From contig NC_092672.1 of assembly GCF_964355755.1 (NCBI RefSeq), positions 30,500,501 through 30,564,500 of the forward strand: a stretch of 64,000 nucleotides of DNA, in the 5' to 3' direction. The notes under the pieces were generated by a model. That model did no database searches, was not told where the DNA came from, and saw only the letters and a program-made list of their open reading frames with translations. The stretch comes from Antedon mediterranea. Its lineage: Eukaryota; Echinodermata; Crinoidea; Comatulida; Antedonidae. Below are positions 1,406 to 60,409 of the stretch, piece after piece. Position numbers and translations under genes: made by a program. How positions within the stretch are numbered: position 1 is the stretch's first letter; each line of letters starts with the position of its first letter.

Positions 1406-2863
1406 ATGATGTCAAGTAAATCTGATGCACCAGCGTATACTGATTATCCACCACCAGCTACTGGAGTGTGGTCGAATAATCAAGGCCAAACTACATTCAA
1501 CTCTACAAACGAAAGTCACAATGACAATGTGTCGCTTATCAAAATCGACAAGTTTAAGGAAACACCATCAAATTATCAGCCAACAGATAATATCTGGAAT
1601 TCAAGAAATGAGGTTATACATGCAATGGATTATCAACAGGTGTGTGGTAATAACATTAGTAATGCATCATCACAGCACATGGAAATCGACGCGCGCGTAA
1701 ATTATAATGCTTGTTAAACGCACATGTAAAAGTATGTATGTGTAGTTCATGAAGTTAAGGCATCATGTGTGTTTATTTGTTTTTTAGGTTCATTTTGAAG
1801 ATGTCATGAAACAACCAAATTCTCCACTCACAATTCCAGGAATAAATACATTCTTTTCTCTAGCCTTTACTTATACTCAGGTAAGAGAAAACCCCATTAA
1901 TATGGTTGGCTTCGATAGATTTCAATTTAAGAAAACTTTCGCAAACTTCATATGTTATCATTTTAGGCCTACCGATATCAATGCAATTTTCAAAAGAAAA
2001 CAGATGCTTTCTTTTATTTTTTTAAAATATGAAAATAATGGTCGCAGCGATGTATTGACGCAAAGTGCTGTATTGCGTAATCACAGGTGGAAACCGACGA
2101 CGCAACAGCGCTGCAAACATCGCAAACATCGCAGGTTTGATTTCACGCAGGCGGGGGCAAACAGAATTATTGAAAGGGCATTTTCTTACTTTGCGTCGGT
2201 TGCGTCGCTAGTGGGAACCAAGCTTTAAGGTTCGAGAATATCAACTTGTTTCCAACGGGGTCCAAATAGATATCTGGGAGACAAAGATTAACAATACAAT
2301 AGAACGCAACGCAGCGACGTATTGACGCAAAGTGCTGTATTGCGTAATCACAAGTGGGAACCGACGACGCAATAGTGCTGCAAGAATCGCAGGTTTGATT
2401 TAACGCAGACGGGAGAAAACACAATTATTAGAAGGGAATTTTCTTACGTTTCGTAGATTGCGTCGCTAGTGGGAACAAAACTTTACATTAAATGATAATG
2501 CAAATAATTTCATTCTTAGGCCTACATATACTTTGCTCTTGATGTAATAACAAATATTATTATTTCTAGGCTGCTATATACACAATGCTAACTCTGATAA
2601 CTGGAATCATCTTCACAGTAGTCTGGGGCATAGTCTTCGCCGTCACCTCTTACGTCACTATTTGGGTATTAAAACCTGTACTACGACTTATTTTGGATAT
2701 TGTAACTCCAATTGGTGCGATTAACCGATTTTTTGTGCGCACGTTCCTAGATCCAATGTTCGGGTCAATTGGTCAGATGTTTGCCTACTTACGTGGTCAA
2801 TTTGGTTTGAACGTTAGTGGCATTTCACGAGAACCAACTAGAGCGTCTGTTCAGAATGTTTAA
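1406..2863 (+). CDS. Caveolin-family protein, three coding exons
   Basis: Coding exons are 1406-1639, 1788-1880 and 2570-2863; both introns have GT-AG ends and phase 0, giving 206 residues. Caveolins insert as a hairpin in the cytoplasmic leaflet and build caveolae. Exon 2 carries FEDVMKQP (residues 81-88), matching the caveolin signature FEDV. The stretch NTFFSLAFTYTQ follows at the scaffolding-domain position. Exon 3 encodes a hydrophobic hairpin containing WGIVFA (compare WGIYFA in vertebrate caveolin), then RTFLDPMFGSIGQMF, matching the family C-terminal block. The N-terminus (about 80 aa) is Pro/Asn/Ser rich and not alignable. The protein contains no cysteine, so the usual palmitoylation sites are absent. 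ATG ATG at 1406 was chosen because this frame is shared by both duplicates and stops occur just upstream. Family assignment is confident; orthology to a specific caveolin is not. Confidence 0.82.
2046..2485. repeat. Duplicated TIR-like element in caveolin intron 2
   Basis: Two related blocks, about 2046-2225 and 2313-2485, each run from GACGCAAAGTGCTGTATTGC to GCGTCGCTAGTGGGAAC. The ends are imperfect inverted repeats of each other. A similar terminal string (GTCCTAGTAGAGACCAAGCT) occurs near 53.2 kb, suggesting one MITE family. Copy 2 of the gene keeps only a short remnant. Confidence 0.5.
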
Positions 2864-12230: not shown

Positions 12231-15200
12231 CTATTCATTAATGCCGTCTACTGCCACTAGAACGATCAATCGTTGCACTGCACGAGTTACAGTCTGCTTC
12301 GCATTTCTATCTTCATTTCTTAATTCAACTTGCACCGTTCTCACTTTTCCGTTTATGTCTGGATACACACTGGAACCCAATCCCATCCTCCATTTCCCAC
12401 GGGCGGTGTTGCTATCCTGCACCAACACGACATCTCCGATCTGCATATTTCTCTTCTCATGATGCCATTTTTGTCTAACTATTAATGATGGGAAGTAATC
12501 TCTGTTCCATTTACCCCAGAAAGACTTTATTAAGCTTTGTACAAATTCGATACGGTTTCTAATGTTATTGGTAGCTCTCCATGGTCCACTCGGTACTCTG
12601 GTTGTAGCACGTCCCAATAAAATCGTATTTGGACATAAGTATGCCCCATCTTCGGGATCGGTTGGATGTCTCCCAATTGGCCTTTCGTTAACCAAGTTGG
12701 CTACCTCAAATAGCACGGTTTGTAATTCGTTAAATGGAAGAACTTGTCCACCAATGGCATGATGTATACCTTTCTTTATACCTTTGTTCAGTATCTCTGT
12801 TACTCCATTTTGCCAGGGAGAATCCGCGGCTGAAAACTTCCAAGTAGTACCTTTGGTGATGCCGAAATCATGAAGATCACTCTCCTGCCATCCGTCAATT
12901 ACCCCTTTTAACTCCTTCGAAGCAGAAACTAATTGATTGTATATCTCAGTGGGGTATCCTCTTATGGACACAAATCTACGAAATGCTTGTAGAAATCCAG
13001 TTGTGCTGTAGTCCGTGGCGAGGTCTAGATATACGGCTTGAGTAACAAAACAGGTGAATATGATTCCATAAGCTTTTCCTCTTGCTCTCTTGTTTACTTC
13101 GCCACGAGTTATAAATGGACCAAACAAGTCAACACCGATGAATGACCATGGTGGAGAGGGCTTCAATCGCTCAATAGGTAATTGTCCCATCTGTTGTCCG
13201 GACATGTCTTTCTCTCTCTTCCTACAAGGAACACAATGGTGTCTGATGCTTTTGGCTAATCTCTGTAAATTCAGAATCCAATACCTCAAACGAACAAGGG
13301 ATACGGTAGACTGTACACCACAATGACTCCTATTATGTGCATGTGTAACATATAGTTTCGAAAATCGATGGTTTGCTGTCAATAGCGGTACTTCTTGGTT
13401 GTTGTAGCTAAAGTTAATATGCCTCTGCGCACGAGCTCCTACTACAATCACACCATCATCTTGTACTCTAGGTGATAGCTTAGCATACTGGTCATCGAAT
13501 CGTTTTTCATTGTTTATGAGCATGTCCATTATTGGTTTTTGGCACTCGATAATCCACAAGAGTTCGGCTTCATTGATGTCATTTGCTGTTAGAACATTTA
13601 AAGCGCCGGCAATTTTTTTCATTTTATACATGTTTTTCATTTTCGTGTTGTATGCAACAGCCTTCTCTGGATCCTTTTTTAACCTATTCTCAAGAGATTT
13701 TAGAGCGAAAAGTGCGGCGTTTCGATTATTTGGCAATTCAGCTGGGTCTTTAATCCAGGGATATTCTGCAATCCAATGAGAACCACAAAATTTGAGATTT
13801 TTCTCGATCAACGCCAATTCCCTTTCTTCCTTCAGTGTGTATTCCTTTGCGCCAACGGGACATCTCCCACAACGACAGCTACCACATTGAGGGTTGCACT
13901 GAACACCCATTCCTGCCATCTTAATAAATGAATCCAAACTGCAAGTTGTAACATGATGTATTAATGCTGCAGTCTTTACAAGCGTTGTTGTATTTTCTTT
14001 TAGGGTTGGATGTGAACCGCCCAAGCATTTTCCAAATCGGTTCTCGAGCAAAAGTAGATGTTCCGCAGCTTCCATTCTTATTGGGTGATAACCTGCGTAC
14101 TCGTATCCTACAAGCAAGTCAACTTGGCCAGTTGGTCGCTTGATCTCTTCAAATCGGACTTTACTGAATAGTCCCACTACATGCTGCACTGCTATGCATT
14201 CTATATTTGACGTAATCTGGTCAATACCGTATGCAGATATGTTGATCACGGATCCCTGTTTGTCGATTAGAGGTACAATATAATGGAAACTGTCTATTTC
14301 CTCTGTTAGTCCTCCAATCTTCGTAATGGCAATTTTCAGAGGCTGACCCTTAAGCTTGGCTGCCCTTGCCGATTTGTTTGTTACGAGAGATGCCGTTGCA
14401 CAGCCATCAAACAAGACATTCATATGCCCAGCTCCCACCTTTATGCTCATCAACTGCAAAAGGCAGGCTCCAGTTTGTTTAGAAGTGGCGACCCCCGTGT
14501 GGTGATTTAATGTTGTTTTGGGTTGACTATTGTCTCCAACAGTATCGTCATGTAGGCTTGAGTGGTGTAAGCGTGAACATTCAGATACACCACATTGTCG
14601 TTTGTTTTTGCATTCAGCTATACGATGCCCTCTTACTAGGCAGCCAAAACATGCACCCTTGGCCCTAACAAGTTGTGTTTTGTCAGATAGGTTCATTGCA
14701 ATGTAAGCCCGGCATTCAGGCGTGGTATGCTGGCCCATGTCATGGACTAAGCAGTTCTTGTTGTTTTCAGATTTGGGTGCGTCGTTTCTCTCTTCAATGT
14801 TTGTGGTGTTAATGGTAAAGCGCGAAGACGGCTTCGATCTCACTCCCGACACTTCGTATTCTACACTTTTCTTTTCCCTCACTAAAAATTTAAGAAGCGC
14901 AGGAAATCTGTCAGTTCTATCAATTACTGCTTTTTCATCATATAATGACCGTGACCATTCTCTTCGAATAGCAGGTGGCAATCTCCTCTCAATGTCACTA
15001 ACCACTCTGGTGTTGGACATTTCCTTCTCCATTCCTAATTTCCGTAGGTCATTATGACCTCTCTCGATGATGTCGACAAACTCAACAAATCTTTTGTCGT
15101 CTCCGTCTTTGAGTGAGTCGATACTTTCAAAGTCATGCATAACGGCATCTGCTAATTTTATTGGGTCGCCATACCGCTCATCCAATCGCTTCCATATTTC

Positions 15201-16061
15201 GTTGATATCATCATCTACGGCGCCTACAACTTGTAGAGGTTTTTCTCCAAGAGATTTCCGCAAAACGAATGCTGCTTGATCCCTTGTGGTCTCAGGCAAA
15301 ATGAATTTTAGAAAGTCTGTTTTGAATCTAGGGTAGGCCCTTACATCTCCGTCAAAGGTTGGCAATCGCATTTTTTCCAATTGTATACCGCCTTTTCTCT
15401 TTTCATCTACTGTCTTCTGAGTTTTGCTTTTGTCGAGGTGCTCCAAAAATATAGCAACAGCACTACTGGTCTCGCCGTACTTATCACGTACTGACTGGAG
15501 CCACAGATTTTCATTTATTGCCTCTTCATTGGGAAGCATGGAAACGTATTGCATATGTGCAGTTTTTACGTCTTCCATCAATTTTACAAGGTCAGCCCTT
15601 GCAGCTTTAACACCCTCAACAGAATTCTTGTTAATCAATTGGATTATCTGATCGCAAAGTTGTTGAAAATCATCATGTTGTATGCTACGAACGTTTTTCG
15701 CTCTCATTGCTGATATTTGGACTTCTTCCTCCTGCAGATGCCTTCTGTCAATTGCCTCAGAATCTATGTGCTGTTCATTAATGCGTGTTTTGTGTCTAAG
15801 TATCATTTCTCTTACTTCATCATATGTCTTCCCTAGTTGGCCAATCCAATTCTCATTCTCCTCTTCGTCCTTTGCAGACTGTAAAACTACTGATTCATGT
15901 CGATCGTTTACTGATTTCCAGGCTTCCTTCAAGTCAGCATTCAGCATATGTACATATTCTATTGTTTTATTCTGGTCAATTGCGGCGACGATAGAATTAC
16001 AAATTCTTGTAAAACGTCCCTTGGCAATACGTCTCAATTTCTTATAATCGGGGTCAGCCAT
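12231..16061 (-). CDS. BEL/Pao polyprotein lacking reverse transcriptase and RNase H
   Basis: The frame encodes 1276 residues without a break. Residues 1-230 are a charged Gag N-terminus; residues 232-400 match the DUF1759 Gag region (LPTFDGDVRAYPRFKTDF). Residues 437-500 carry Cys/His zinc-knuckle motifs (CFGCLVRGHRIAEC). Residues 535-660 match the retropepsin-like DUF1758 region, but the active-site string is FDGCATASL. At about residue 811 (near 13630) the sequence passes directly from the pre-RT linker (ENRLKKDP) to the linker before integrase (AELLWI). The whole RT with its YVDD box and RNase H are absent, in frame. The integrase HHCC finger (906-946) and core (GVDLFGPF, 976-983) follow. 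The expected SDNG aspartate is missing at IYNQLVSASKEL, and the Glu region is diverged (NGVTEI). The integrase is therefore probably inactive. An intact frame despite these losses suggests selection for Gag/protease or simply youth. Confidence 0.88.
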   Translation of the reverse strand: MADPDYKKLRRIAKGRFTRICNSIVAAIDQNKTIEYVHMLNADLKEAWKSVNDRHESVVLQSAKDEEENENWIGQLGKTYDEVREMILRHKTRINEQHIDSEAIDRRHLQEEEVQISAMRAKNVRSIQHDDFQQLCDQIIQLINKNSVEGVKAARADLVKLMEDVKTAHMQYVSMLPNEEAINENLWLQSVRDKYGETSSAVAIFLEHLDKSKTQKTVDEKRKGGIQLEKMRLPTFDGDVRAYPRFKTDFLKFILPETTRDQAAFVLRKSLGEKPLQVVGAVDDDINEIWKRLDERYGDPIKLADAVMHDFESIDSLKDGDDKRFVEFVDIIERGHNDLRKLGMEKEMSNTRVVSDIERRLPPAIRREWSRSLYDEKAVIDRTDRFPALLKFLVREKKSVEYEVSGVRSKPSSRFTINTTNIEERNDAPKSENNKNCLVHDMGQHTTPECRAYIAMNLSDKTQLVRAKGACFGCLVRGHRIAECKNKRQCGVSECSRLHHSSLHDDTVGDNSQPKTTLNHHTGVATSKQTGACLLQLMSIKVGAGHMNVLFDGCATASLVTNKSARAAKLKGQPLKIAITKIGGLTEEIDSFHYIVPLIDKQGSVINISAYGIDQITSNIECIAVQHVVGLFSKVRFEEIKRPTGQVDLLVGYEYAGYHPIRMEAAEHLLLLENRFGKCLGGSHPTLKENTTTLVKTAALIHHVTTCSLDSFIKMAGMGVQCNPQCGSCRCGRCPVGAKEYTLKEERELALIEKNLKFCGSHWIAEYPWIKDPAELPNNRNAALFALKSLENRLKKDPEKAVAYNTKMKNMYKMKKIAGALNVLTANDINEAELLWIIECQKPIMDMLINNEKRFDDQYAKLSPRVQDDGVIVVGARAQRHINFSYNNQEVPLLTANHRFSKLYVTHAHNRSHCGVQSTVSLVRLRYWILNLQRLAKSIRHHCVPCRKREKDMSGQQMGQLPIERLKPSPPWSFIGVDLFGPFITRGEVNKRARGKAYGIIFTCFVTQAVYLDLATDYSTTGFLQAFRRFVSIRGYPTEIYNQLVSASKELKGVIDGWQESDLHDFGITKGTTWKFSAADSPWQNGVTEILNKGIKKGIHHAIGGQVLPFNELQTVLFEVANLVNERPIGRHPTDPEDGAYLCPNTILLGRATTRVPSGPWRATNNIRNRIEFVQSLIKSFWGKWNRDYFPSLIVRQKWHHEKRNMQIGDVVLVQDSNTARGKWRMGLGSSVYPDINGKVRTVQVELRNEDRNAKQTVTRAVQRLIVLVAVDGINE

Positions 16062-16265
16062 GTTTTATAGAATAAAATTAAAGTCGGTGATTCAAGTGAA
16101 TACAGTTCTGTGTATACAGTAATACAAGGATGTAGCTCCTGGCGCAGTCAAATATTGGTATCACACCGAAAGAACGGTAACTTGAGTGCGTGATGAGCAG
16201 GTTCATAAACAGGTCAGCAGAGTGCTGTCACTTCTCACTGTGCACGTAGAACACAGTATTTCGAA
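16062..16265 (-). other. BEL/Pao 5' untranslated leader
   Basis: About 200 bp lies between the 5' LTR (at 16266) and the start codon of the polyprotein (16061, minus strand). It would contain the primer binding and packaging signals. No canonical TGG-starting primer site is visible next to the LTR. Confidence 0.6.
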
Positions 16266-16667: not shown

Positions 16668-19600
16668 GTGACGTCTAGACGTATTATTATAGTGACGTCT
16701 AGACGTATTATTATAGTGAGGTCTAGACGTATTATTATAGTGACGTCTAGACATATTATTATATTGACGCCGAGACGTACTGTTATAGTGACAACTAGAC
16801 GTACTGTTAGTGACGTCTAGACGTGACTGTTATAGTGACGTCTAGACGTACTGTTATAGTGACGTCTAGACGTACTGTTATAGTGACGACTAGACGTACT
16901 GTTCAGTGACGTCGAGACGTACTGTTATAGTGACGTCTAGATGTACTGTTATAGTGACGTCTAGACGTACTGTTATAGTGACGTCTAGACGTAATTATTA
17001 TAGTGACGTCTAGACGTAATTATTATAGTGACGTCTAGACGTAATTATTATATTGACGTCTAGACGTAATTATTATAGTGACGTCTAGACGTAATTATTA
17101 TAGTGACGTCTAGACGTATTATTATAGTGACCTCTAGACGTAATTATTATTGTGACCTGTAGACGTAATTATTATAGTGACGTCTAGACGTATTATTATA
17201 GTGACGTCTAGACGTATTATTATAGTGACCTCTAGACGTATTATTATAGTGACGTCTAGACGCATTATTATAGTGGCGTCTAGACGTACTGTTATAGTGA
17301 CGTCTAGACGTATTATTATAGTGACGTCTATACGTATTATTATATTGACGTCTATATGTATTATTATTGACGTCTATACATATTATTATATTGACGTCTA
17401 TACGTATTATTGTGACGTCTAGAAGTATTATTATAGTGACGTCTAGACGTATTATTATAGTGACATCTATACGTATTATTTTAGTGACGTCTAGACGTAT
17501 TATTATAGTGACGTCTAGACGTATTGTTATAGTGACGTCTAGACGTACTGTTATAGTGACGTCTAGACGTACTGTTATGGTGACGTCTAGACGTACTGTT
17601 ATAGTGACGTCTAGACGTACTGTTATAGTGACGTCTAGACGTAATGTAATAGTGACGTCTAGACGTACTGTTATAGTGACGTCTAGACGTACTGTTATAG
17701 TGACGTCTAGACGTACTGTTATAGTGACGTCTAGACGTACTGTTATAGGTGACGTCTAGACGTACTGTTATAGTGACGTCTAGACGTACTGTTATAGTGA
17801 CGTCTAGACGTACTGTTATAGTGACGTCTAGACGTACTGTTATAGTGACGTCTAGACGTACTGTTATAGTGACGTATATACGTATTATTATATTGATGTC
17901 TATACGTATTATTATAGTGACGTCTAGAGGTATTATTATAGTGACGTCTAGACGGATTATTATAGTGAAGTCTAGACGTATTATTATAGTGACGTCTATA
18001 CGTATTATTTTAGTGACGTCTAGACGTATTATTATAGTGACGTCTAGACGTATTATTATAGTGACGTCTATACGTATTATTATAGTGACGTTTATACGTA
18101 TTATTATAGTGACGTCTAGACGTATTATTATAGTGACGTCTAGACGTATTATTATAGTGACGTCTAGACGTATTGTTATAGTGACGTCTAGACGTATTGT
18201 TATAGTAACGTCTAGATGTACTGCTATAGTGACGTATAGACGTACTGTTATAGTGACACCTAGACGTACTGTTATAGTGACGTCTAGACGTAATGTAATA
18301 GTGACGTCTAGACGTACTGTTATAGTGACGTCTAGACGTACTGTTATAGTGACGTCTAGACGTACTGTTATAGGTGACGTCTAGACGTACTGTTATAGTT
18401 ACGTCTAGACGTACTGTTATAGTGACGTCTAGACATACTGTTATAGTGACGTCTAGACGTACTGTTATAGTGACGTCTAGACGTACTGTTATAGGTGACG
18501 TCTAGACGTACTGTTATAGTGACGTCTAGACGTACTGTTATAGTGACGTCTAGACGTACTGTTATAGTGACGTCTAGAGGTATTATTATAGTGACGTCTA
18601 GACGGATTAATATAGTGAAGTCTAGACGTATTATTATAGTGACGTCTATACGTATTATTATAGTGACGTCTAGACGTATTATTATAGTGACGTCTAGACG
18701 TATTATTATAGTGACGTCTATACGTATTATTATAGTGACGTCTATACGTATTATTATAGTGACGTCTAGACAAATTATTATAGTGACGTCTAGACGTATT
18801 ATTATAGTGACGTCTAGACGTATTGTTATAGTGACGTCTAGACGTATTGTTATAGTGACGTCTAGATGTACTCTTATAGTGACGTCTAGACGTACTGTTA
18901 TAGTGACACCTAGACGTACTGTTATAGTGACGTCTAGACGTAATGTAATAGTGACGTCTAGACGTACTGTTATAGTGACGTCTAGACGTACTGTTATAGT
19001 GACGTCTAGACGTACTGTTATAGTGACGTCTAGACGTACTGTTATAGTGACGTCTAGACGTACTGTTATAGGTGACGTCTAGAGGTACTGTTATAGTGAC
19101 GTCTAGACGTACTGTTATAGTGACATCTAGACATACTGTTATAGTGACGTCTAGACGTACTGTTATAGTGACGTCTATACGTATTATTATATTGACGTCT
19201 AGACGTATTATTATAGTGACGTCTAGAGGTATTATTATAGTGACGTCTAGACGGATTACTATAGTGACGTCTAGACGTATTATTATTGTGACGTCTAGAC
19301 GTATTATTATAGTGACGTCTAGACGTATTATTATAGTGACGTCTAGACGTATTATTATAGTGACGTCTATACGTATTATTATAGTGACGTCTATACGTAT
19401 TATTATAGTGACGTCTATACGTATTATTATAGTGACGTCTAGACGTATTATTATAGTGACGTCTAGACGTATTATTATACTGACGTCTATACGTATTATT
19501 ATAGTGACGTCTATACGTATTATTTTAGTGACGTCTAGACGTATTATTATAGTGACGTCTAGACGTATTATTATAGTGACGTCTAGACGTATTGTTATAG

Positions 19601-20827
19601 TGACGTCTAGACGTATTGTTATAGTGACGTCTAGATGTACTGTTATAGTGACGTCTAGACGTACTGTTATAGTGACACCTAGACGTACTGTTATAGTGAC
19701 GTCTAGACGTAATGTAATAGTGACGTCTAGACGTACTGTTATAGTGACGTCTAGACGTACTGTTATAGTGACGTCTAGACGTACTGTTATAGGTGACGTC
19801 TAGACGTACTGTTATAGTGACGTCTAGACGTACTGTTATAGTGACGTCTAGACATACTGTTATAGTGACGTCTAGACGTACGGTTATAGTGACGTCTAGA
19901 CGTACTGTTATAGGTGACGTCTAGACGTACTGTTATAGTGACGTCTAGAAGTACTGTTATAGTGACGTCTAGACGTACTGTTATAGTGACGTCTATACGT
20001 ATTATTATATTTACGTCTAGACGTATTATTATAGTGACGTCTAGAGGTATTATTATAGTGACGTCTAGACGGATTATTATAGTGAAGTCTAGACGTATTA
20101 TTATAGTGACGTCTATACGTATTATTATAGTGACGTCTAGACGTATTATTATAGTGACGTCTAGACGTATTATTATAGTGACGTCTATACGTATTATTAT
20201 AGTGACGTCTATACGTATTATTATAGTGACGTCTAGACGAATTATTATAGTGACGTCTAGACGTATTATTATAGTGACGTCTAGACGTATTGTTATAGTG
20301 ACGTCTAGACGTATTGTTATAGTGACGTCTAGATGTACTGTTATAGTGACGTCTAGACGTACTGTTATAGTGACACCTAGACGTACTGTTATAGTGACGT
20401 CTAGACGTAATGTAATAGTGACGTCTAGACGTACTGTTATAGTGACGTCTAGACGTACTGTTATAGTGACGTCTAGACGTACTGTTATAGTGACGTCTAT
20501 ACGTACTGTTATAGTGACGTCTAGACGTACTGTTATAGTGACGTCTAGAGGTATTATTATAGTGACGTCTAGACGTATTATTATAGTGATGTCTAGACGT
20601 AATTATTATAGTGACGTCTAGACGTAATTATTATAGTGACGTCTAGACGTAATTATTATAGTGACGTCTAGACGTAATTATTATAGTGACGTCTAGATGT
20701 ATTATTATAGTGACGTCTAGACGTATTATTATAGTGACGTCTAGACGTATTATTATAGTGACATCTAGACGTAATATTATAGTGACGTCTAGACGTATTA
20801 TTATAGTGACGTCTAGACGTATTATTA
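16668..20827. repeat. 24 bp GTGACGTCTAGACGT satellite, about 170 units
   Basis: Units of 24-25 bp share GTGACGTCTAGACGT followed by TACTGTTATA, TATTATTATA or TAATTATTATA. Each standard unit holds the 12 bp palindrome ACGTCTAGACGT. Rare variants recur in order: TAATGTAATAG at 17641, 18290, 18940, 19709 and 20407 (spacings about 649, 650, 769 and 698), usually preceded by a GACACC unit, with AGGTGACG length variants between. This shows higher-order repeats of roughly 27-32 units. Since 24 is divisible by three, long open frames such as repeated TSRRTVIV arise automatically and are not genes. Confidence 0.95.
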
Positions 20828-24661: not shown

Positions 24662-26780
24662 TTTTTTAGCATGCTCCAAAAAGTATAATTAATAATTGAT
24701 AATTTGCATACAATATAGGCAGTACAAATACAACAATGATTTACTCGTGATTGCAACGTTCAAAGGTTGACATTGTTTTTGTCTCTCTGACTTTCATGAA
24801 GTTCGATTAGTTGTCGCTCGAAGTCCGTGCTTTAAGTTAGTCTTCATCATCAATTTTCACTGAACATAATACTATATTAATGTAAGTTACTTGATTTATA
24901 CTATTTTTTAACACATAGTAGACCTAGGCCTAACTAGACATGTAACTAAAATTAGATTGACCGACAAATTAAATCAAAATGCGGTTTTAGCCTTGTCTAC
25001 GTACACTGTCACTATGGGATGGAGAGGATAGTGAATCCCCTTGTTGAACTCATTAATCTCCTGCAACTCATTTCATCTTTTCTTCATTCTTTGATTTTTA
25101 AGATGATGTCAAGTAAATCTGATGCACCAGCCTATTCTGGTTATCCACCACCAACTACTGGAGTGTGGTCGAATAATCAAGGTCAAACTATATTCAACTC
25201 TACAAAAAGTCACACTGACAATGTGTAGCTTTTCCAAATCGACAAGTTTAAAGAAACACCAAGAAATTATCAGCCAACGGATAATATCTGGAATTCAAGA
25301 AATGAGGTTATACATGCAATGGATTATCAACAGGTGTGTGGTAATAGCATTAGTATTGCATCACAGCACTTACGCGCGCGTAAATTATAAAGTTTGAACG
25401 CACATGTAAAAGTATGTCTGTGTAGTTCATGAAGTTAAGGCATCATGTCTGTTTATTTGGTTTTTTTAGGTTCAATTTGAAGATGTCATGAAACAACCAA
25501 ATTCTCCACTCAGAATTCCAGGATTAAATACATTCTTTTCTCTAGCCTTTACTTATACTCAGGTAAGAGAAAACGCCATTAATATCGTGGGCTTCCATAG
25601 ATTTCAATTAAGAAAACTTTCGCAAACATCATATGTTATCATTTTAGGCCTATCGATATCAATGCAATTTTCAAAAGAAAACAGATTTTTCGTAAAATAT
25701 GACAATAATGGTCGAATAGTCAAAACATGAACAACAGAACCCAAGTATCTACGCCTGGATAATCCCTAAAATTTTGAGAATATCAACTTGTTTCCAACGG
25801 GGTTCAAATAGATAACTGGGAGTCAAAGATTAACGCTGACGGTGGCAAACACAATTATTAGAAGGGCATTTTTGTTTATGTAGAACCAGTGGGAACCAAG
25901 CTTTACATAAAATGATAATGCAAATCATTTCATTCTTAGGCCTACACATACTTTGCTCTTGATTTAATAAACAATATTTTTATTTTTAGGCTGCTATATA
26001 CACAATACTAACTCTGATAACTGGAATCATCTTCACGGTAGTCTGGGGCATAGTCTTCGCCGTCACCTCTTACGTCACTATTTGGGTATTAAAACCTGTA
26101 CTACGACTCATTTTAGATCTTGTAACTCCAATTGGTGCGATTAACCGATTTTTTGTGCGCACGTTCCTAGATCCAATGTTCGGGTCAATTGGCCAGATGT
26201 TTGCCTACTTACGTGGTCAATTTGGTTTGAACGTTAGTGGCATTTCACGAGAACAAACTAGGGCGTCTGTTCAGAATGTTTAAGTAAGCCAATCAAACAT
26301 CTTGTCTTGGTTTAAGAAACCAATTGAAATTTTGCGTGAATCCGCCTTAACTATCCAATGTATAACTATGTAATATTTAATGAACCAGCCTGGATGAGCA
26401 AAAACCAAACAGTTTTGAACTCTCAGTAAAACGTATGGCCAACAAATTAATTACCAACATGCCGAATTGTTATATCATATATAAATTAATATTATTAATA
26501 CAAATATCATCTTTATTGTTCTAAATTTGGGAAAATCAATCAATTTATTTGTACAATTTACTTGACATGAAATTTGGTATTAAAACAGTAAGACGTAAAA
26601 AATACAATACAAAATAAAAATTAATGTTGATCTTTGATGTGTTTGTTTTGCTTTAATTCCTTAAGAAGGAAACAAATTGTAAATTATGGGAAGTGTTAAG
26701 CCTTGTCTACATTATCAATATGGACATGATGATGTCATATCACTATCATGTTTGGGCATATCAATAACCGTATTTGGGCA
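24662..26780. repeat. Segmental duplication, copy 2
   Basis: It aligns with 602-3720 in the same orientation, from the upstream flank through the caveolin-like gene to the AGCCTTGTCTACA TIR element. It is shorter because it lacks the retroposon at 2961-3297 and most of the duplicated block in intron 2. Confidence 0.85.
25103..26283 (+). pseudogene. Second caveolin-like gene, broken by a nonsense codon in exon 1
   Basis: Exon equivalents are 25103-25333, 25470-25562 and 25990-26283, with the same GT-AG junctions and phases as copy 1. Exon 1 has a 3-base in-frame deletion and then TAG at 25226-25228 where copy 1 has TCG (Ser). The rest of the frame is open to TAA at 26281-26283. Exons 2 and 3 are highly conserved: exon 3 shows three amino acid changes that I can see (M to I, I to L, P to Q) and several silent ones. 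A protein could arise only by read-through, a later start, or an alternative first exon. The pattern fits a recently inactivated duplicate or an assembly/allele effect. Confidence 0.8.
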
Positions 26781-28059: not shown

Positions 28060-31000
28060 ATGGGAGTAACAGTGGAAACAATCAAACCTGGTGATGGTAA
28101 GTATTTCACAAATTAGTGAAAGATTCAAACTAGCCTAGTTTTAGGCCTATTCTATTTAATTACATTTTCGTTCGAAGTAAATTCAAATCTTCTATAATAA
28201 TAGACAGTATATATAAAAGTAATTAAGCTGCTTTGTCCAGAAACTTAATGTTTTATTTTTTTTTTGTATTCTTTGTGGTTCACCACCACCTTTATTCATT
28301 CAATGTTTCATTACATATTTTAATTTTTAAACATTTTCTATCTTTTTTCATTATTTTATGTTTTCCCTCATTGATATATCACAATTTTAACCTTTACTTT
28401 TGTACCATAGTAAACATTAGCATTCATTTTTAGTATTTTTGTTTTCTAAATTTACTAAACATTAATAGTAATACAAAGTATACTTTTTTTAATTGTTAAA
28501 TCCTCTATTTACAATAACCAATTGTAGATTAAGTAAAATACTTATATAACTATCTACATACATTAAATGCATTGTTTAAAGATGTATTGTCCCTTGAAAC
28601 ACAAAAAATGAAGGTCAAAATATTCTAAATTTAAATTGGCGATATCAAAGTACCGTATATTTCGGTGTATAAGACGCACTTTTGACACGCAAATTTGACC
28701 TCTAAATTTTGGGTGCGTCTTATACACCGGTAACTTCCTCACGCACCCTTAAAAAGCTAGTTAACAGTGTACAGTAGCTAGCTAGGAGGCCTACCTACCT
28801 AACCTAGCCTATTAAAAATAGTGTACTACTCTGCAATGTAGGCCTAGCTAGTTACTCCTGTCGAATCACGGTTGATCACCACATTGTGGTAACAAGTTTA
28901 TTGAATTTTTAATTAAGGTATAAATTGTCATCCCCGACTGTAATAATTAATATTTACAGTACTTGCATGAGATATTCTATCCAGGCCAAGTACTCTCTGA
29001 ACTCGCAGGTGTGTATTCATCACACAGCACAACATATTTATGGAAGAGTCCATTAATTATGGTGGTGTCAAATTTTAATTACACAAAAACTATTTCCCTT
29101 GATCAAGGTGGTTTATTTTATTACATCTCTATGTCAACAATCCAATAAATTTAAAATCATGTAGGCGATAGTTCGTAGGTCAAGCGATATCTAAAAGAGC
29201 GTGTTGTTATTGTGTTAAGTAGCTTCCCCTAATCTCATAATGTATATGGCCAACAGTGCTGGGCCAGGCAAGGAGGAGCACATGGTTAGTGCTCTCCTTA
29301 CTGTAAATGCATGCATGCATAGGAAAGATTTTCATATACTGTACATGATATTCCTGCTTCATTTTCAGCCCAAAAACTGAACATCGTTTAGATTGATTTT
29401 ATATAATGGTCATACACACAATAAGAAGGTATATATTTAAATAATATGAAATTAAAGTTACTTAAATAGACATAGGCTAGCCCTACCCACACAGTGCATC
29501 GTAACTGAACAAATATGGGGATTTCTCTTTTCACTGAACGTTCAGTTGAGACTGATTACGATGTAATATTAAGGCAATCAAACAAAATTATATCATTTGA
29601 TTCAATAAATATGTCTCAAATTTCATTGTTTTATATGTAAAATACCATTGTTTTGATTGTAAAATGTTAAAATTTCGGCCTAGAAATAAGTGCGTCTTAT
29701 ACATTGACTACATAAAAAATACTAATATTTCAGTCTCCGTTATGGGTGCGTCTTATACACAGGTGCGACTTATACACCAAAATATACGGTAATATTAAAG
29801 TTTTTTACTTTAATTCGAAAATTTGACCCAAAAACAACAATTTTACGTAATTAACAGCTAAATTAATTTGATTACATTTCGTCTGGAAAATCGTCGCGAG
29901 CGAAAGTAAACAAAGATTTCAAACCATGAGTATACATTATGCATGATGTTAATTAGGATTGTTTACAACTCCTCACAGTTGAGAAGGTGTTTTCACACAG
30001 ATCGCGAGGAAGTTTTATGATTATGCGTACAGAGTAGCAAAATAAGCGCGTTGCATTATGAGATATGTTTTGATCGAAAACTTTGACTGGAAGTCAAAGT
30101 TATTTTTTGAACAAAAAAAACAGTCTCTATTTCAGTTAAATGATTTTTTTTTCGACTAATTTTTTGTGAAAGTTAATAACTATTATAATGCTTCAAAATG
30201 ACCCACTTTTTTTCGAAATATTTTTATTTTTATTTTTTTTGGGAATTTGACAAAGGGACAATACATCTTTAATGTACACTGATAATGTAATGTTTAAGTG
30301 TGTATTCTATTGAAGCATAGGAATGAATTAACCTAGGTTAAAGTCTAACAATAACACCCAAGTTTTTTAAATGAACTTCATTTTGTACTTATATTTTCAG
30401 TATTCATTAAGTGTGTGTGTTTTTATTTGTAGGAAAATCATTTCCCAAAGTAGGACAGAAGGTGTCTGTACATTATGTAGGTGAGTCTGGACCACCTTTG
30501 AATCATTTATTTTTTGCCGAACGGATTTTACCCACAACATTCCTACAGTAAAGGCAATGTAATGCAATGCGACATTTATTTAGCACTATTTCATGAAGAT
30601 CAGAGTGCTGTGGAATTAGATGTTACACCTTTTCAACAACATTCTTCTTCCCTAAGGGTTACATCGTGTTATCGGCAGCCAACTACGGCGCCATTACGGC
30701 TGTCCACGACAGTCTGCGTGTGTACTAGTAGTAGTACACTGGGATTACCCCCTACTCGTCTCAAAAGATGTACTGTACTAAGTGTGTACGAGCAGTGTGC
30801 ATACACTGGACCTACGGTTTATAGTCCTGTTAATGTTATGGCTATGGATTACGGTTCCACTGTCTTAACTGTTTGGCAGTTTGATACAGTTGAGTGATCT
30901 GGACACCCATAAGTCTTTTCTTATACCCCTTTCACACCAAAACTCCGGAGTGATCTCCGGAGACACCCCAGGGTTTATGACCATTCAAAACGTCGAGAAA

Positions 31001-34000
31001 TTGCGGAGATACCCCTTTCACACCAACCAACCAACACCGGGGTTTATAAAATAAAATTGTATATGTCGCCCTCTATTTTGTTTGTTTACATAGCGACGAT
31101 CATTAGAATCATTTAAATTAATAATATTTTTAATTTAATAATTACTTTCAAAAGTCTCAGAAGTAATATGATATTTTATTGATACTACTTATATTTTTTA
31201 AACCTGCTATATATTTTGTAAAGATATTTAAAGTATTTTGAAATAAAACTAAAGCAATGAGTGATCGTGTGATGAGGATGACCTTTTGACCTTAAACTCC
31301 GGAGTTTTGATGTTTGTACCTTTTCACACCAAAACACTGGGGTGTCCCCGCAGTTCGCTCTCCGGAGAATGTTCAGCTGTTCAACCCAGCAGTTTTAAAC
31401 TCCGGAGTTGCTTGATTTTACCTTTCGCACCAAAACAGCGGGGCGTCAACTCCGGAGTGTCTCCGGAGTTTTGCACTTGCTTTTGGTGTGAAAGGGGTAT
31501 TGCTAAATACTAGGCTATCGCAGTCAATATTCATACGCAAATGGTTCCAGCACATATCCATTAACATTTTAGACTGTCTTTAGTGGAAGTGGAAGTTTTT
31601 ATTAATATTTTTACAAAAATGTAATGTGCTGGATTGTTTGTTTTATCTTTATACTGGGTGACCTCTTCAGTCAAAGACTGATCTCCCAGAGGGCCCAGTT
31701 GGTCATCAGTGGCTGTGATGTATTAATACACCGGGGTAACCCCCTACTCGTCTCGAAAGATGTACTAGGTTCTTTAAAGTGGACACGAGCAAGTTGTGTA
31801 CACTGGACCTACGGTTTATAGTCCTTATCCGAGAAGACTCGTTCTACCACCAGAACCATGGAGTGAGTGAGCCTCGAACCCCTGCCGATTTTATGGCTAC
31901 GTGATTACGGTTCCACTGTCTTAACCGCTCGGCCACTCACTCACTCACTTACAGTAAGGCAACTGTAAAACATGTTTGTTTTTTCATAGGTACATTAACT
32001 AACGGCAACAAATTTGACTCTTCTCGTGATCGTGGCAAACCTTTTCAATTCAATCTTGGTCAAGGTCAGGTCATCAAAGGATGGGACGAGGGCGTTGCTC
32101 AGGTATGTACTATCGTATACTGTCATGTTTAAGCAGCTATTTTCAGTTTTGATAAGTTTAAAAATATGGACTATTTTCACACTTTTATGAGAAAGCAACA
32201 CACTTTATACTTCCATAAATGTAATGATTTTAGTTATGGTCTAAGTGAAAACTCAACTATTGATATATGAAAGAAAGTTATATTTATTGTATATATAAGA
32301 GATTCTTAAATTTCAAATGTGTCGACACAGGTGAAATAAAGAAATAAATATTTTGCCTTTGTTTTGATTTCAGATGAGCATAGGACAGAGGGCCAAGTTA
32401 ACCTGTTCACCAGACTATGCATATGGATCTCAGGGATTCCACGATGTATATCCTTTTCTAATAACTAAACCTTGAGACAACAAGTCTGGTATTTCTGAGA
32501 GGGTGCTGTAACAAAAAAATGCCATTCTGGACCGGATTTAATATATAGTTTTGCTTGGGGGAAAAAAGGACTCTTGGGTTAGGCTAGGTCTTAGACTCTT
32601 GGCAAGCCTAGGTCTTAGAATGCAAGTAGCAGTGGTCTTAGACTCTTGGCAGGCCTAGGTCTTAGACTCCTGGCAGGCCTAGGTATTTGACTGCAAGTAG
32701 CAGTGATCTTAGCTTAGACTCTTGCTAGGCCTAAGTCTTAGAATGCAAGTAGCAGTGGTCTTAGACTCTTGGCAGGCCTAGGTCGTAGACAGCAAGTAGC
32801 AGTGGTCATAAATTCTTGGTAAGCATATTTCTTAGACTGCATGTACTGTAGCAGTGGTCTTAGACTCGTGGCAGGCCTAGGTCTATGACTGCAAGTAGGA
32901 GTGGTCTTAGACTCTTGGCAGGCCTAGGTCTTAGACTCTTGGTAAGCCTAAATCCTAAGCCTAGTTTTTATATTGCAATCCCCACATCATTTTGTTTATA
33001 GCACCCTTTAGAGATGTCAAACTTGTTTTTATCTTGATGCGATTTTAATACAGGACATACTACTATCATCATACTATTCAGTTACTGTCTAAAGCCTGTT
33101 TTCCTTTCGACGTTGTTCGACGCTATCGTTAACAATAATCGGTGATCTTCTACATAAACATTGAAATTTTAACGATTTACAGGAAAGGTACTATCGTTAT
33201 CATTTCAACTTGATCGTTTTCAAAAGATCGTCGTTGAACTTTTAACGATCAACGACGATATCGTCGAATAACGTCGACAGGAAAACAGGCTTAAGTGATA
33301 AGGTGGGGATGGTTGACATTAAAGAGATATTGATAATTTCCATAAAGTAAATGTTTGTCTCTTAACGTCAACCACACTTACACCATAGTATTATGATTAG
33401 TAGTAATATATATTAATGTATTTCTGGGCCCAACTTAAGTAATGTCTGTTTCCTGCGCTACCAACTCATAAACATCAACATCAAAGTAATGAATGAAGTT
33501 TAAATTAACTCTAAACAGAGAGGCAATATTTTTAATGATTTTGCCCCAGTCAATTAGTATGTACTTGATTTATCATTCCCACTCAATGTGTCTATCGTTA
33601 AAAACAAAAATTAAAGATAAAAAAATTAAAGCAGCTACCAAAAACTTTTTTTGCATTTAATAATTGGTACGATCATAAATCATTCACTTATTCACAGTAG
33701 ATTCCCTTCTTTGGGATGACCTATTCGGAAGAAACCCCTTTAAGGGGACACTTTCCTGTGAAACAAACGAGGGGCAATTTATGTTCTAACACAACAGCCA
33801 ACACCTATTAGGGGGATTCTTTGTTGGTTGGGTCTCAAAGATATCCCTATTAGTTAGTTGACAGTTTTATTTTAGATTATTCGTTCTTTAGCAGTCCAAT
33901 GCTAATTTGCTGCAATTTAATTAGCATAACTATATCTAATAAAACCGCCCATTGATAAAGATTTTAAAAATTATATTTACATTTAGTGTAAAAAAAATGA

Positions 34001-34082
34001 CGACAAACTTTCCTTAACTTTTCACACTATACCACCAAATTCTACACTCATCTTCGAAGTGGAACTCCTCTCTTTTCAATAA
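28060..34082 (+). CDS. FKBP1A: FKBP12-type peptidyl-prolyl isomerase, five exons
   Basis: Coding exons are 28060-28096, 30433-30480, 31990-32102, 32374-32447 and 34028-34082 (327 nt, 108 residues), exactly the usual FKBP12 length. The enzyme catalyses cis-trans isomerisation of prolyl bonds in the cytosol, binds FK506/rapamycin, and in animals associates with calcium release channels and TGF-beta receptors. The pocket residues are visible: Tyr27, Phe37, Asp38 (KFDSSRDR), Phe47, Val56-Ile57, Trp60 ([11 protein letters not shown]), Tyr83 (PDYAYG) and Phe100. Position 55 is Gln rather than Glu, and the human His88 position is Phe with His next to it. Introns 1-3 have GT-AG ends; intron 4 has AT-AC ends with U12-type signals. 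AATAAA lies at 34171. Whether this is the ortholog of FKBP1A or of an FKBP1A/1B ancestor is not resolved. Confidence 0.94.
28577..30272. mobile_element. TIR element in FKBP12 intron 1, TAAAGATGTATTGTCCC family
   Basis: Left end TTAAAGATGTATTGTCCCTT and right end AAGGGACAATACATCTTTAA are inverted repeats. A relative with GGGGGACAATACATCTTTAA lies at about 47674-48217. A second element (28652-29790) sits inside this one, so its own length is only about 560 bp. No transposase is present. Confidence 0.75.
28652..29790. mobile_element. Nested TIR element, ACCGTATATTTCGGTG family, copy 1
   Basis: The left end ACCGTATATTTCGGTGTATA and the right end TATACACCAAAATATACGGT are inverted repeats; subterminal GTGCGTCTTATACA strings recur at both ends. 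A T on the left and an A on the right make the flanks palindromic, so a TA target is possible. A second copy lies at about 62630-63425. The interior has no recognisable transposase. Confidence 0.8.
30690..30890 (-). mobile_element. Truncated SINE copy in FKBP12 intron 2
   Basis: It shares ACCCCCTACTCGTCTC, CACTGGACCTACGGTTTATA and ATTACGGTTCCACTGTCTTA with the fuller SINE at about 31640-31950, but the box B part is deleted. The open frame at 30514-30897 spans intron and SINE sequence and is not a gene. Confidence 0.7.
30924..31499. mobile_element. MITE in FKBP12 intron 2, TACCCCTTTCACACC family
   Basis: Left end TACCCCTTTCACACCAAAAC and right end TTTTGGTGTGAAAGGGGTA are inverted repeats. The interior repeats parts of the terminus several times, with many CTCCGGAG palindromes (around 30960-31030, 31310-31345 and 31410-31465), giving a heavily self-complementary element of about 575 bp. 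No coding capacity. Confidence 0.82.
31640..31950 (-). mobile_element. tRNA-derived SINE in FKBP12 intron 2
   Basis: On the minus strand the head reads GTGGCCGAGCGGTTAAGAC (31918-31936), a box A like that of class II (Leu/Ser) tRNAs. About 40 bases on comes GGTTCGAGGC (31871-31880), a near-perfect box B. The body continues toward lower coordinates and is shared with the truncated copy at 30690-30890. The head does not fold as a proper mature tRNA, so I call it a SINE and not a tRNA gene. Confidence 0.78.
32578..32960. repeat. Minisatellite in FKBP12 intron 4
   Basis: Irregular units built from CTTAGACTCTTGGCAGGCCT, AGGTCTTAGACTGCAAGTAG and CAGTGGT repeat about seven times, with unit sizes of roughly 45-60 bp. 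It lies within the U12-type intron. Confidence 0.8.
33093..33291. mobile_element. 199 bp MITE with TAA target duplication
   Basis: Left end AGCCTGTTTTCCTTTCGACG and right end CGTCGACAGGAAAACAGGCT are inverted repeats; TAA flanks both sides (33090-33092 and 33292-33294). The TWA target fits PIF/Harbinger-derived MITEs. It is inserted in FKBP12 intron 4. Confidence 0.82.
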
Positions 34083-34176
34083 GCTGTATTTTGTGGAATT
34101 GTCCGTACACGTCATTTTGATAACCTCGTACATTAATATTATAATCATTGTTATCAATTAGATTGTTAGTAATAAA

Positions 34177-59515: not shown

Positions 59516-59659
59516 TTAAACCTTTATTTTAACGTAAATTTTATTTTGATCATCAGGCTAATTCAACAGAACAACTAGAAAGTATTGAGGAGTTCATGAA
59601 GAGATATTCGTTAATTCATGTAAAACGAACGAAGCATACTAACGAAATGTGTTTACGGC

Positions 59660-60409
59660 ATGGAAAACGTCTGGCTGGAAAACCTCTTAGTAAATGAGAA
59701 ACACAAGATTGTCTTCTGTCAAACTCCGAAAGTCGGAAGTGTAAGTTGGTGTCGAATAATGTTGGTACTATCGGAATATATGAACTACACACAAGTGATG
59801 AAACTTACCGCATACCAGGTTAGCCGTGCGTGGAAGAAACATGTACCCCGTCTAGGTGCATTCCCATTGAGTAAACAGAAATACATTTTGGCTAACTACA
59901 CTAAATTTATGTTCGTTAGACACCCGTTCACACGACTTTTATCAGCATTTATTGACAAAATGAAGAAGAAAGATGGAAAATACCAACGACGAGGTACTGA
60001 GAAATATGTAAACAAAATTAAGGGTCACTATAGATGGGATAGAAATGCAACTGAAGACGTGGAATTTGTTGATTTTATTAATATGGTAGTCTCTAACGTA
60101 GGCAACATTCATTGGAGTGAGATGTATAAGGTCTGCGGTTCGTGCGATATCCACTATGACGTCATTGGACATTTTGAGGATATGACAAACGATGCTAAAT
60201 ATATTTTAACACTTTCAAATGTGACAAGTGTAGGTTTTCCAGAACCTTCCAAATCACATGCTACGTATAGCTCAGATAATGATAAGATATTTAAAGCCTT
60301 TTCCACTTTACCGGTATCAATGTTAGCTGATTTATATTACAAATTCAAATATGATTTTGCACTTTTTGACTATAAAATACCATTTAACATAAATCAAAAT
60401 AGAAAATAA
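59660..60409 (+). CDS. Carbohydrate sulfotransferase, HNK-1/CHST8-14 type (catalytic exon)
   Basis: The frame encodes 249 residues of a Golgi enzyme that transfers sulfate from PAPS to glycans. The 5'-phosphosulfate loop is PKVGSVSW (residues 24-31; family PKxxCTxW, with Cys-Thr-Asn replaced by Ser-Val-Ser). The 3'-phosphate motif is RHPFTRLLSAF (86-96). Further blocks are EFVDFINMVV, NIHWSEMYKVCGSCDIHYDV, IGHFED, DAKYIL and YYKFKYDFALFDY at the C-terminus. The exon probably starts upstream (acceptor CAG at 59556 or 59569). Another frame there, ending ...MCLRHGKR, resembles the family's pre-catalytic region. The two frames would be continuous if the A-run at 59679-59682 were one base shorter. 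Either ATG 59660 starts a short form, or the gene or assembly carries a frameshift. A signal-anchor exon may lie at 47274. Confidence 0.85.
   Translation: MENVWLENLLVNEKHKIVFCQTPKVGSVSWCRIMLVLSEYMNYTQVMKLTAYQVSRAWKKHVPRLGAFPLSKQKYILANYTKFMFVRHPFTRLLSAFIDKMKKKDGKYQRRGTEKYVNKIKGHYRWDRNATEDVEFVDFINMVVSNVGNIHWSEMYKVCGSCDIHYDVIGHFEDMTNDAKYILTLSNVTSVGFPEPSKSHATYSSDNDKIFKAFSTLPVSMLADLYYKFKYDFALFDYKIPFNINQNRK

Follow-up and report, generated by a model that had tools for sequence, protein, structure and literature searches.

The window analysed here, a 64-kb stretch of contig C3 in the 354-Mb Antedon genome, carries a five-coding-exon FKBP12 gene on its plus strand (window 28060-34082), whose spliced product is 108 amino acids long (Table 1). 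The spliced protein matches the Pfam FKBP_C profile from end to end (positions 1-94/94, 129 bits). It consists of this single complete domain of ~108 aa, with neither a signal peptide nor TPR, and its best single-domain matches in the PDB are PPIases of the FKBP12/FKBP12.6 type. Judged by these features, the gene is an intact FKBP12 (an FKBP1-type peptidyl-prolyl isomerase), as the initial annotation had proposed. Intron 2 contains CTCCGGAGT and CCTTTCACACC repeats in both orientations (window 30920-31510), which adjoin a repeat common to 30720 and 31740 and resemble the remnant of a small DNA transposon.

Table 1. Coordinates of the FKBP12 gene, of the signals of its last intron, and of its paralog (window numbering, except for the paralog on contig C6).
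Feature	Position	Strand	Remarks
Coding exon 1	28060..28096	+	12 residues + 1 nt, GTAAGT donor next; intron 1 phase 1
Coding exon 2	30433..30480	+	U2-type GT-AG flanks; intron 2 phase 1
Coding exon 3	31990..32102	+	U2-type GT-AG flanks; intron 3 phase 0
Coding exon 4	32374..32447	+	24 residues + GT; U2-type acceptor upstream, U12-type AT donor downstream
Read-through extension upon intron retention	32448..32475	+	YPFLITKP, then TGA
Probable U12-type AT-AC intron 4	32448..34027	+	1580 bp, phase 2, last intron
U12-type 5' splice site ATATCCTTTT	32448..32457	+	pairs with the genome's U11 (CCTTTT) and U6atac (TCCTTT)
Branch site TTTCCTTAACT	34009..34019	+	branch A ~34017, 10 nt before terminal C
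AC 3' splice site	34026..34027	+	terminal dinucleotide of intron 4
Coding exon 5	34028..34082	+	remainder of V91, 17 residues, stop TAA
AATAAA poly(A) signal	34171..34176	+	~90 bp past the stop; TG-rich stretch 30-40 bp beyond
C6 paralog exons	23535301-23535254, 23534846-23534734, 23533043-23532970, 23532291 onward	-	678-bp AT-AC intron before the last exon

The last intron runs from ATATCCTTTTCTAA to ACTTTCCTTAACTTTTCACAC, between an exon 4 that closes with ...GGATTCCACGATGT at 32447 and an exon 5 that opens with TATACCACC and closes with CAATAA. Its donor, ATATCCTTTT at 32448, matches the U12-type 5' splice site pattern [AG]TATCCTT. Near its other end, TTTCCTTAAC matches the U12 branch consensus TTCCTTAAC, which lies ~10-16 nt from the 3' end and needs no polypyrimidine tract. 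The initial annotation had placed the branch site correctly, but the motif it gave, TCCTTAAC, is only a subset of this match. Over both strands of the 64 kb, the donor core ATATCCTTT occurs once (1.0 expected), and that copy is the 5' end of the intron; the branch core TTCCTTAAC also occurs once (0.9 expected), at the intron's 3' end. With the intron removed, the junction reads GAT GT/T ATA CCA (the slash marks the splice), the last beta strand is restored, and the product has the predicted length of 108. The terminal AT and AC sit where the protein demands them, and they are the sole combination of a U12 donor with a product of family length.

When the genome was searched at the protein level, a second FKBP12 gene came to light on the minus strand of contig C6. 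Its first exon was not found within ~14 kb upstream, and the two genes share three downstream intron positions. Their proteins are 73% identical (70/96 aligned positions, stop included), and across the comparable 95 codons pS is 0.75 and pN is 0.21. On this comparison, the two copies are the products of an old duplication, and both are under constraint at the protein level. The C6 gene is likewise interrupted by an AT-AC intron, in the same phase and at the same codon (GGTGT/ATATCCTTTA...TTTTCCTTAACTGCTACACAC/TATTCC). In the DNA, its exon 4 boundary reads GGTGT/ATATCCTTTAAATTG, followed 678 bp on by TTTTCCTTAACTGCTACACAC/TATTCCACCATCTTCAACG. The C6 donor, ATATCCTTTA, fits the U12-type 5' splice site pattern as well, and the spacing from branch A to terminal C is 11 nt there and 10 nt in the window gene. 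Between the paralogs, 9/9 donor bases and 11/11 branch bases (TTTCCTTAACT) are identical, while the intron bodies (1580 vs 678 bp) show no alignment beyond chance. A tandem repeat with a period of about 47/99/123 (window 32590-32937) lies inside the window intron and is missing from the paralog intron, which explains part of the extra length of the former. Exon 5 is conserved as protein, the 17 residues of the window gene comparing with IPPSSTLVFDVELLSFV in C6. A tblastn match to C6 that spans the junction as far as residue 101, and that could be taken to mean the intron is absent there, reflects an intron start that happens to read through by chance. Since the sister gene shares both the intron and its position, we take the intron to be real and old; and since both old paralogs share it in codon and phase, it predates the duplication and, as far as these two genes tell, was already in the ancestor of both.

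It is conceivable that an ordinary major-class GT-AG intron lies nearby and that the AT-AC motifs are coincidental. We therefore considered the in-frame splice pairs enumerated across both paralogs (GT-AG and GC-AG, with AT-AC also in the list). In the window gene, a single GT-AG pair, the GT at 32446 with the AG at 33986, holds the frame through to the stop. However, it exchanges V91 for 14 foreign residues (net +13) in the loop leading to the last strand, unlike every FKBP12 among the PDB matches. Two in-frame GC-AG pairs use the same AG and are worse, so that no GT-AG or GC-AG pair in this gene gives a C-terminus of family length. Each of the remaining in-frame AT-AC pairs either departs from the U12 type in its donor or branch spacing or yields a product of the wrong length. 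In the C6 paralog, full enumeration yielded no in-frame GT-AG or GC-AG pair that restores the C-terminal strand, since the branch motif itself contains a TAA in frame. On the enumeration we rejected GT-AG and GC-AG alternatives in both paralogs, and coincidence also fits poorly with donor and branch bases that were kept while the intron bodies became unalignable; we regard this explanation as very improbable.

Exon 4 might instead be terminal, with the protein ending in YPFLITKP and exon 5 a relic. Its frame is open as far as the TGA at 32475, and several ATTAAA/AATAAA hexamers lie within the intron, from 33318 to 33938. As the initial annotation had pointed out, such a product is without the last beta strand: its match to FKBP_C ends at profile position 76 (102.9 bits). 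In a phmmer search of the PDB, the spliced form matches the FKBP12-like chain 7dki_A with 179.8 bits (query residues 2-106) and the read-through form with 152.3 bits (2-93); FKBP12-type chains cover residues 1-107 of the former but the latter only to 93. Moreover, exon 5 is constrained at the protein level between the paralogs, whereas their read-through peptides diverge after VYP and are therefore not visibly under selection, and a good AATAAA lies downstream of exon 5, at 34171. On the PDB and Pfam shortfall, together with the paralog comparison, we rejected the read-through isoform as the main product, and a terminal exon 4 is hardly credible.

There is also the question of which spliceosome would remove an intron with these ends. 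U2-type AT-AC introns have an ATAAG-type donor. The donor here is ATATCCTT, unlike that type, and in both paralogs a complete U12 branch consensus stands 10-11 nt before the terminal C, with branch and AC not separated by any polypyrimidine tract. AT-AC termini by themselves are no proof of U12 dependence, and SCN4A intron 21 is an AT-AC intron spliced by the major (U2) spliceosome (PMC2831892); for intron 4, with its donor and branch site, we consider that route exceedingly improbable. The motifs, the protein and the C6 paralog all bear out the exact junction first proposed, and there is little room for doubt that 32448-34027, with which the series of introns in this intact FKBP12 gene ends, is truly of the U12-dependent AT-AC type.

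All four minor snRNAs are present in the genome above the Rfam cut-offs: U11 (88.6 bits at one locus and 82.9 at another), U12 (125.7 bits), U4atac (97.6 bits) and U6atac (136.6 bits; a further, diverged copy scores 33.7). Contig C1 carries a CHHC zinc finger of the U11-48K type (C1:17371156). The initial annotation had predicted an active U11/U12 machinery from the intron, and the snRNA genes agree with this. As an inference it was overstated, because deuterostomes except tunicates keep minor introns at vertebrate-like densities and many other animals retain them (PMC10639083), which makes such a machinery ordinary for an animal. The two U11 genes, at C5:11057853 and C8:13519935, are diverged but share the 5' end AAAAAGGGCTTTT and are probable U11 variants. 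Two adjoining GTSF1-type CHHC zinc-finger exons, of the piRNA pathway, lie at C1:36872864-36873648 and are distinct from the U11-48K-type finger.

The snRNAs of this genome can be paired with the intron by computation: the U11 5' end AAAAAGG with donor CCTTTT (6 bp), U6atac AAAGGA with donor TCCTTT (6 bp), and U12 AGTAAGGAAA with TTTCCTT(A)ACT (10 bp, one bulged A). In the minor-spliceosome pathway, the order of snRNP binding is established. For intron 4 we infer splicing in RNA and the same order of events, in which U11 would bind ATATCCTTTT as the 5' splice site and U12 the branch site TTTCCTTAACT, with the branch adenosine bulged; U6atac would then replace U11 on the donor, and the 3' splice site would be the AC that lies 10 nt past the branch A. 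If intron 4 were retained, the protein would end in YPFLITKP and lack its final strand (V91 onward); in FKBP12 this strand forms part of the ligand pocket. Because no exon junction lies downstream of intron 4, junction-dependent decay would presumably spare an mRNA that retains it. The control of an immunophilin by the minor spliceosome, which the initial annotation had predicted, is hypothetical. For genome annotation, a procedure confined to GT-AG would truncate or mis-splice FKBP12, both in the window and on C6, and lose part of the drug/receptor pocket.

Intron 4 belongs to the well-known class of U12-type AT-AC introns and by itself implies no new mechanism. It shares with other animal members of the class (e.g., in Drosophila; PMC2831892) the AT-AC ends, the ATATCCTT donor, the TTCCTTAAC branch, the branch-to-AC spacing of 10-11 nt, phase 2 and T at -1, and it is, as usual, a lone minor intron among major introns. 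In U12 introns phase 0 is underused and T is overall in excess at position -1, the latter reported for the GT-AG subtype (PMC7367187); intron 4 is in phase 2 with T at -1. The description of AT-AC introns as very rare is right in that the type is rare, but it goes too far, for they make up a sizeable minority of U12 introns (565 GT-AG to 204 AT-AC among U12DB clusters; PMC2831892). What differs from known U12 AT-AC introns is the host gene. Among the papers whose text was searched, none ties FKBP12 to a minor intron.

The human FKBP1A and FKBP1B genes are of the same family and length, and their exons 1-4 seem to correspond to those of Antedon. However, a mutation screen that took in every coding exon of the human FKBP12 and FKBP12.6 genes covered four exons in each and placed the FKBP12.6 3'UTR in exon 4 (PMC3268099). 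Because four coding exons leave no fifth-exon junction, the human genes appear to lack an intron at the V91 codon in phase 2, whereas in the Antedon gene the C-terminal strand has its own exon behind the U12 intron. The suggestion that vertebrate FKBP1A genes hold the homologous intron is thus probably wrong for human. An intron in an FKBP51/52-like gene on contig C7 was considered as a homologue; it is of the U2 GT-AG type and lies after YGSRG, five codons further upstream, and is therefore a different intron. Viral contigs that were searched held only SlyD-like bacterial FKBPs and no animal orthologues. A search for COX1 gave no match in the Antedon assembly.

Intron 4 is a minor intron of a gene whose human copies appear to have none, so that its distribution among animals can be used to date a loss or a gain. 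The evolutionary interest is modest: the intron is older than an old duplication, yet apparently missing from the human genes. Loss is the usual fate of U12 introns (PMC2831892), and on this general pattern a loss on the vertebrate line is more likely than a gain elsewhere. The opposite reading, in which the group to which this animal belongs acquired the AT-AC intron in its FKBP12 lineage, by gain or by conversion, and retention of the intron sets the level of functional FKBP12, is unlikely; if true, it would be a rare example of a U12 intron gained late.

The surroundings of the gene include further features. Just upstream of FKBP12 is a tandem caveolin duplication, with two near-identical caveolin-like last exons on the plus strand, ~23 kb apart (window 2570-2863 and 25990-26283); the second matches Pfam Caveolin (E 8e-14), and the upstream exons of both copies are similar. 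Between the copies sits a retrotransposon, with a repeated stretch on each side (11857 and 16313) and a long open frame of 1277 aa on the minus strand (window 12231-16064) that contains DUF1759, DUF1758, integrase H2C2 and DUF5641. Between this retroelement and the second caveolin copy lies a large array that resembles a minisatellite and can be read in several frames, with TVRLDVTI / RRHYNST repeats (window 17147-20627). A single-exon carbohydrate sulfotransferase-like gene is found at window 59624-60409 on the plus strand (Sulfotransfer_2, E 2e-43).
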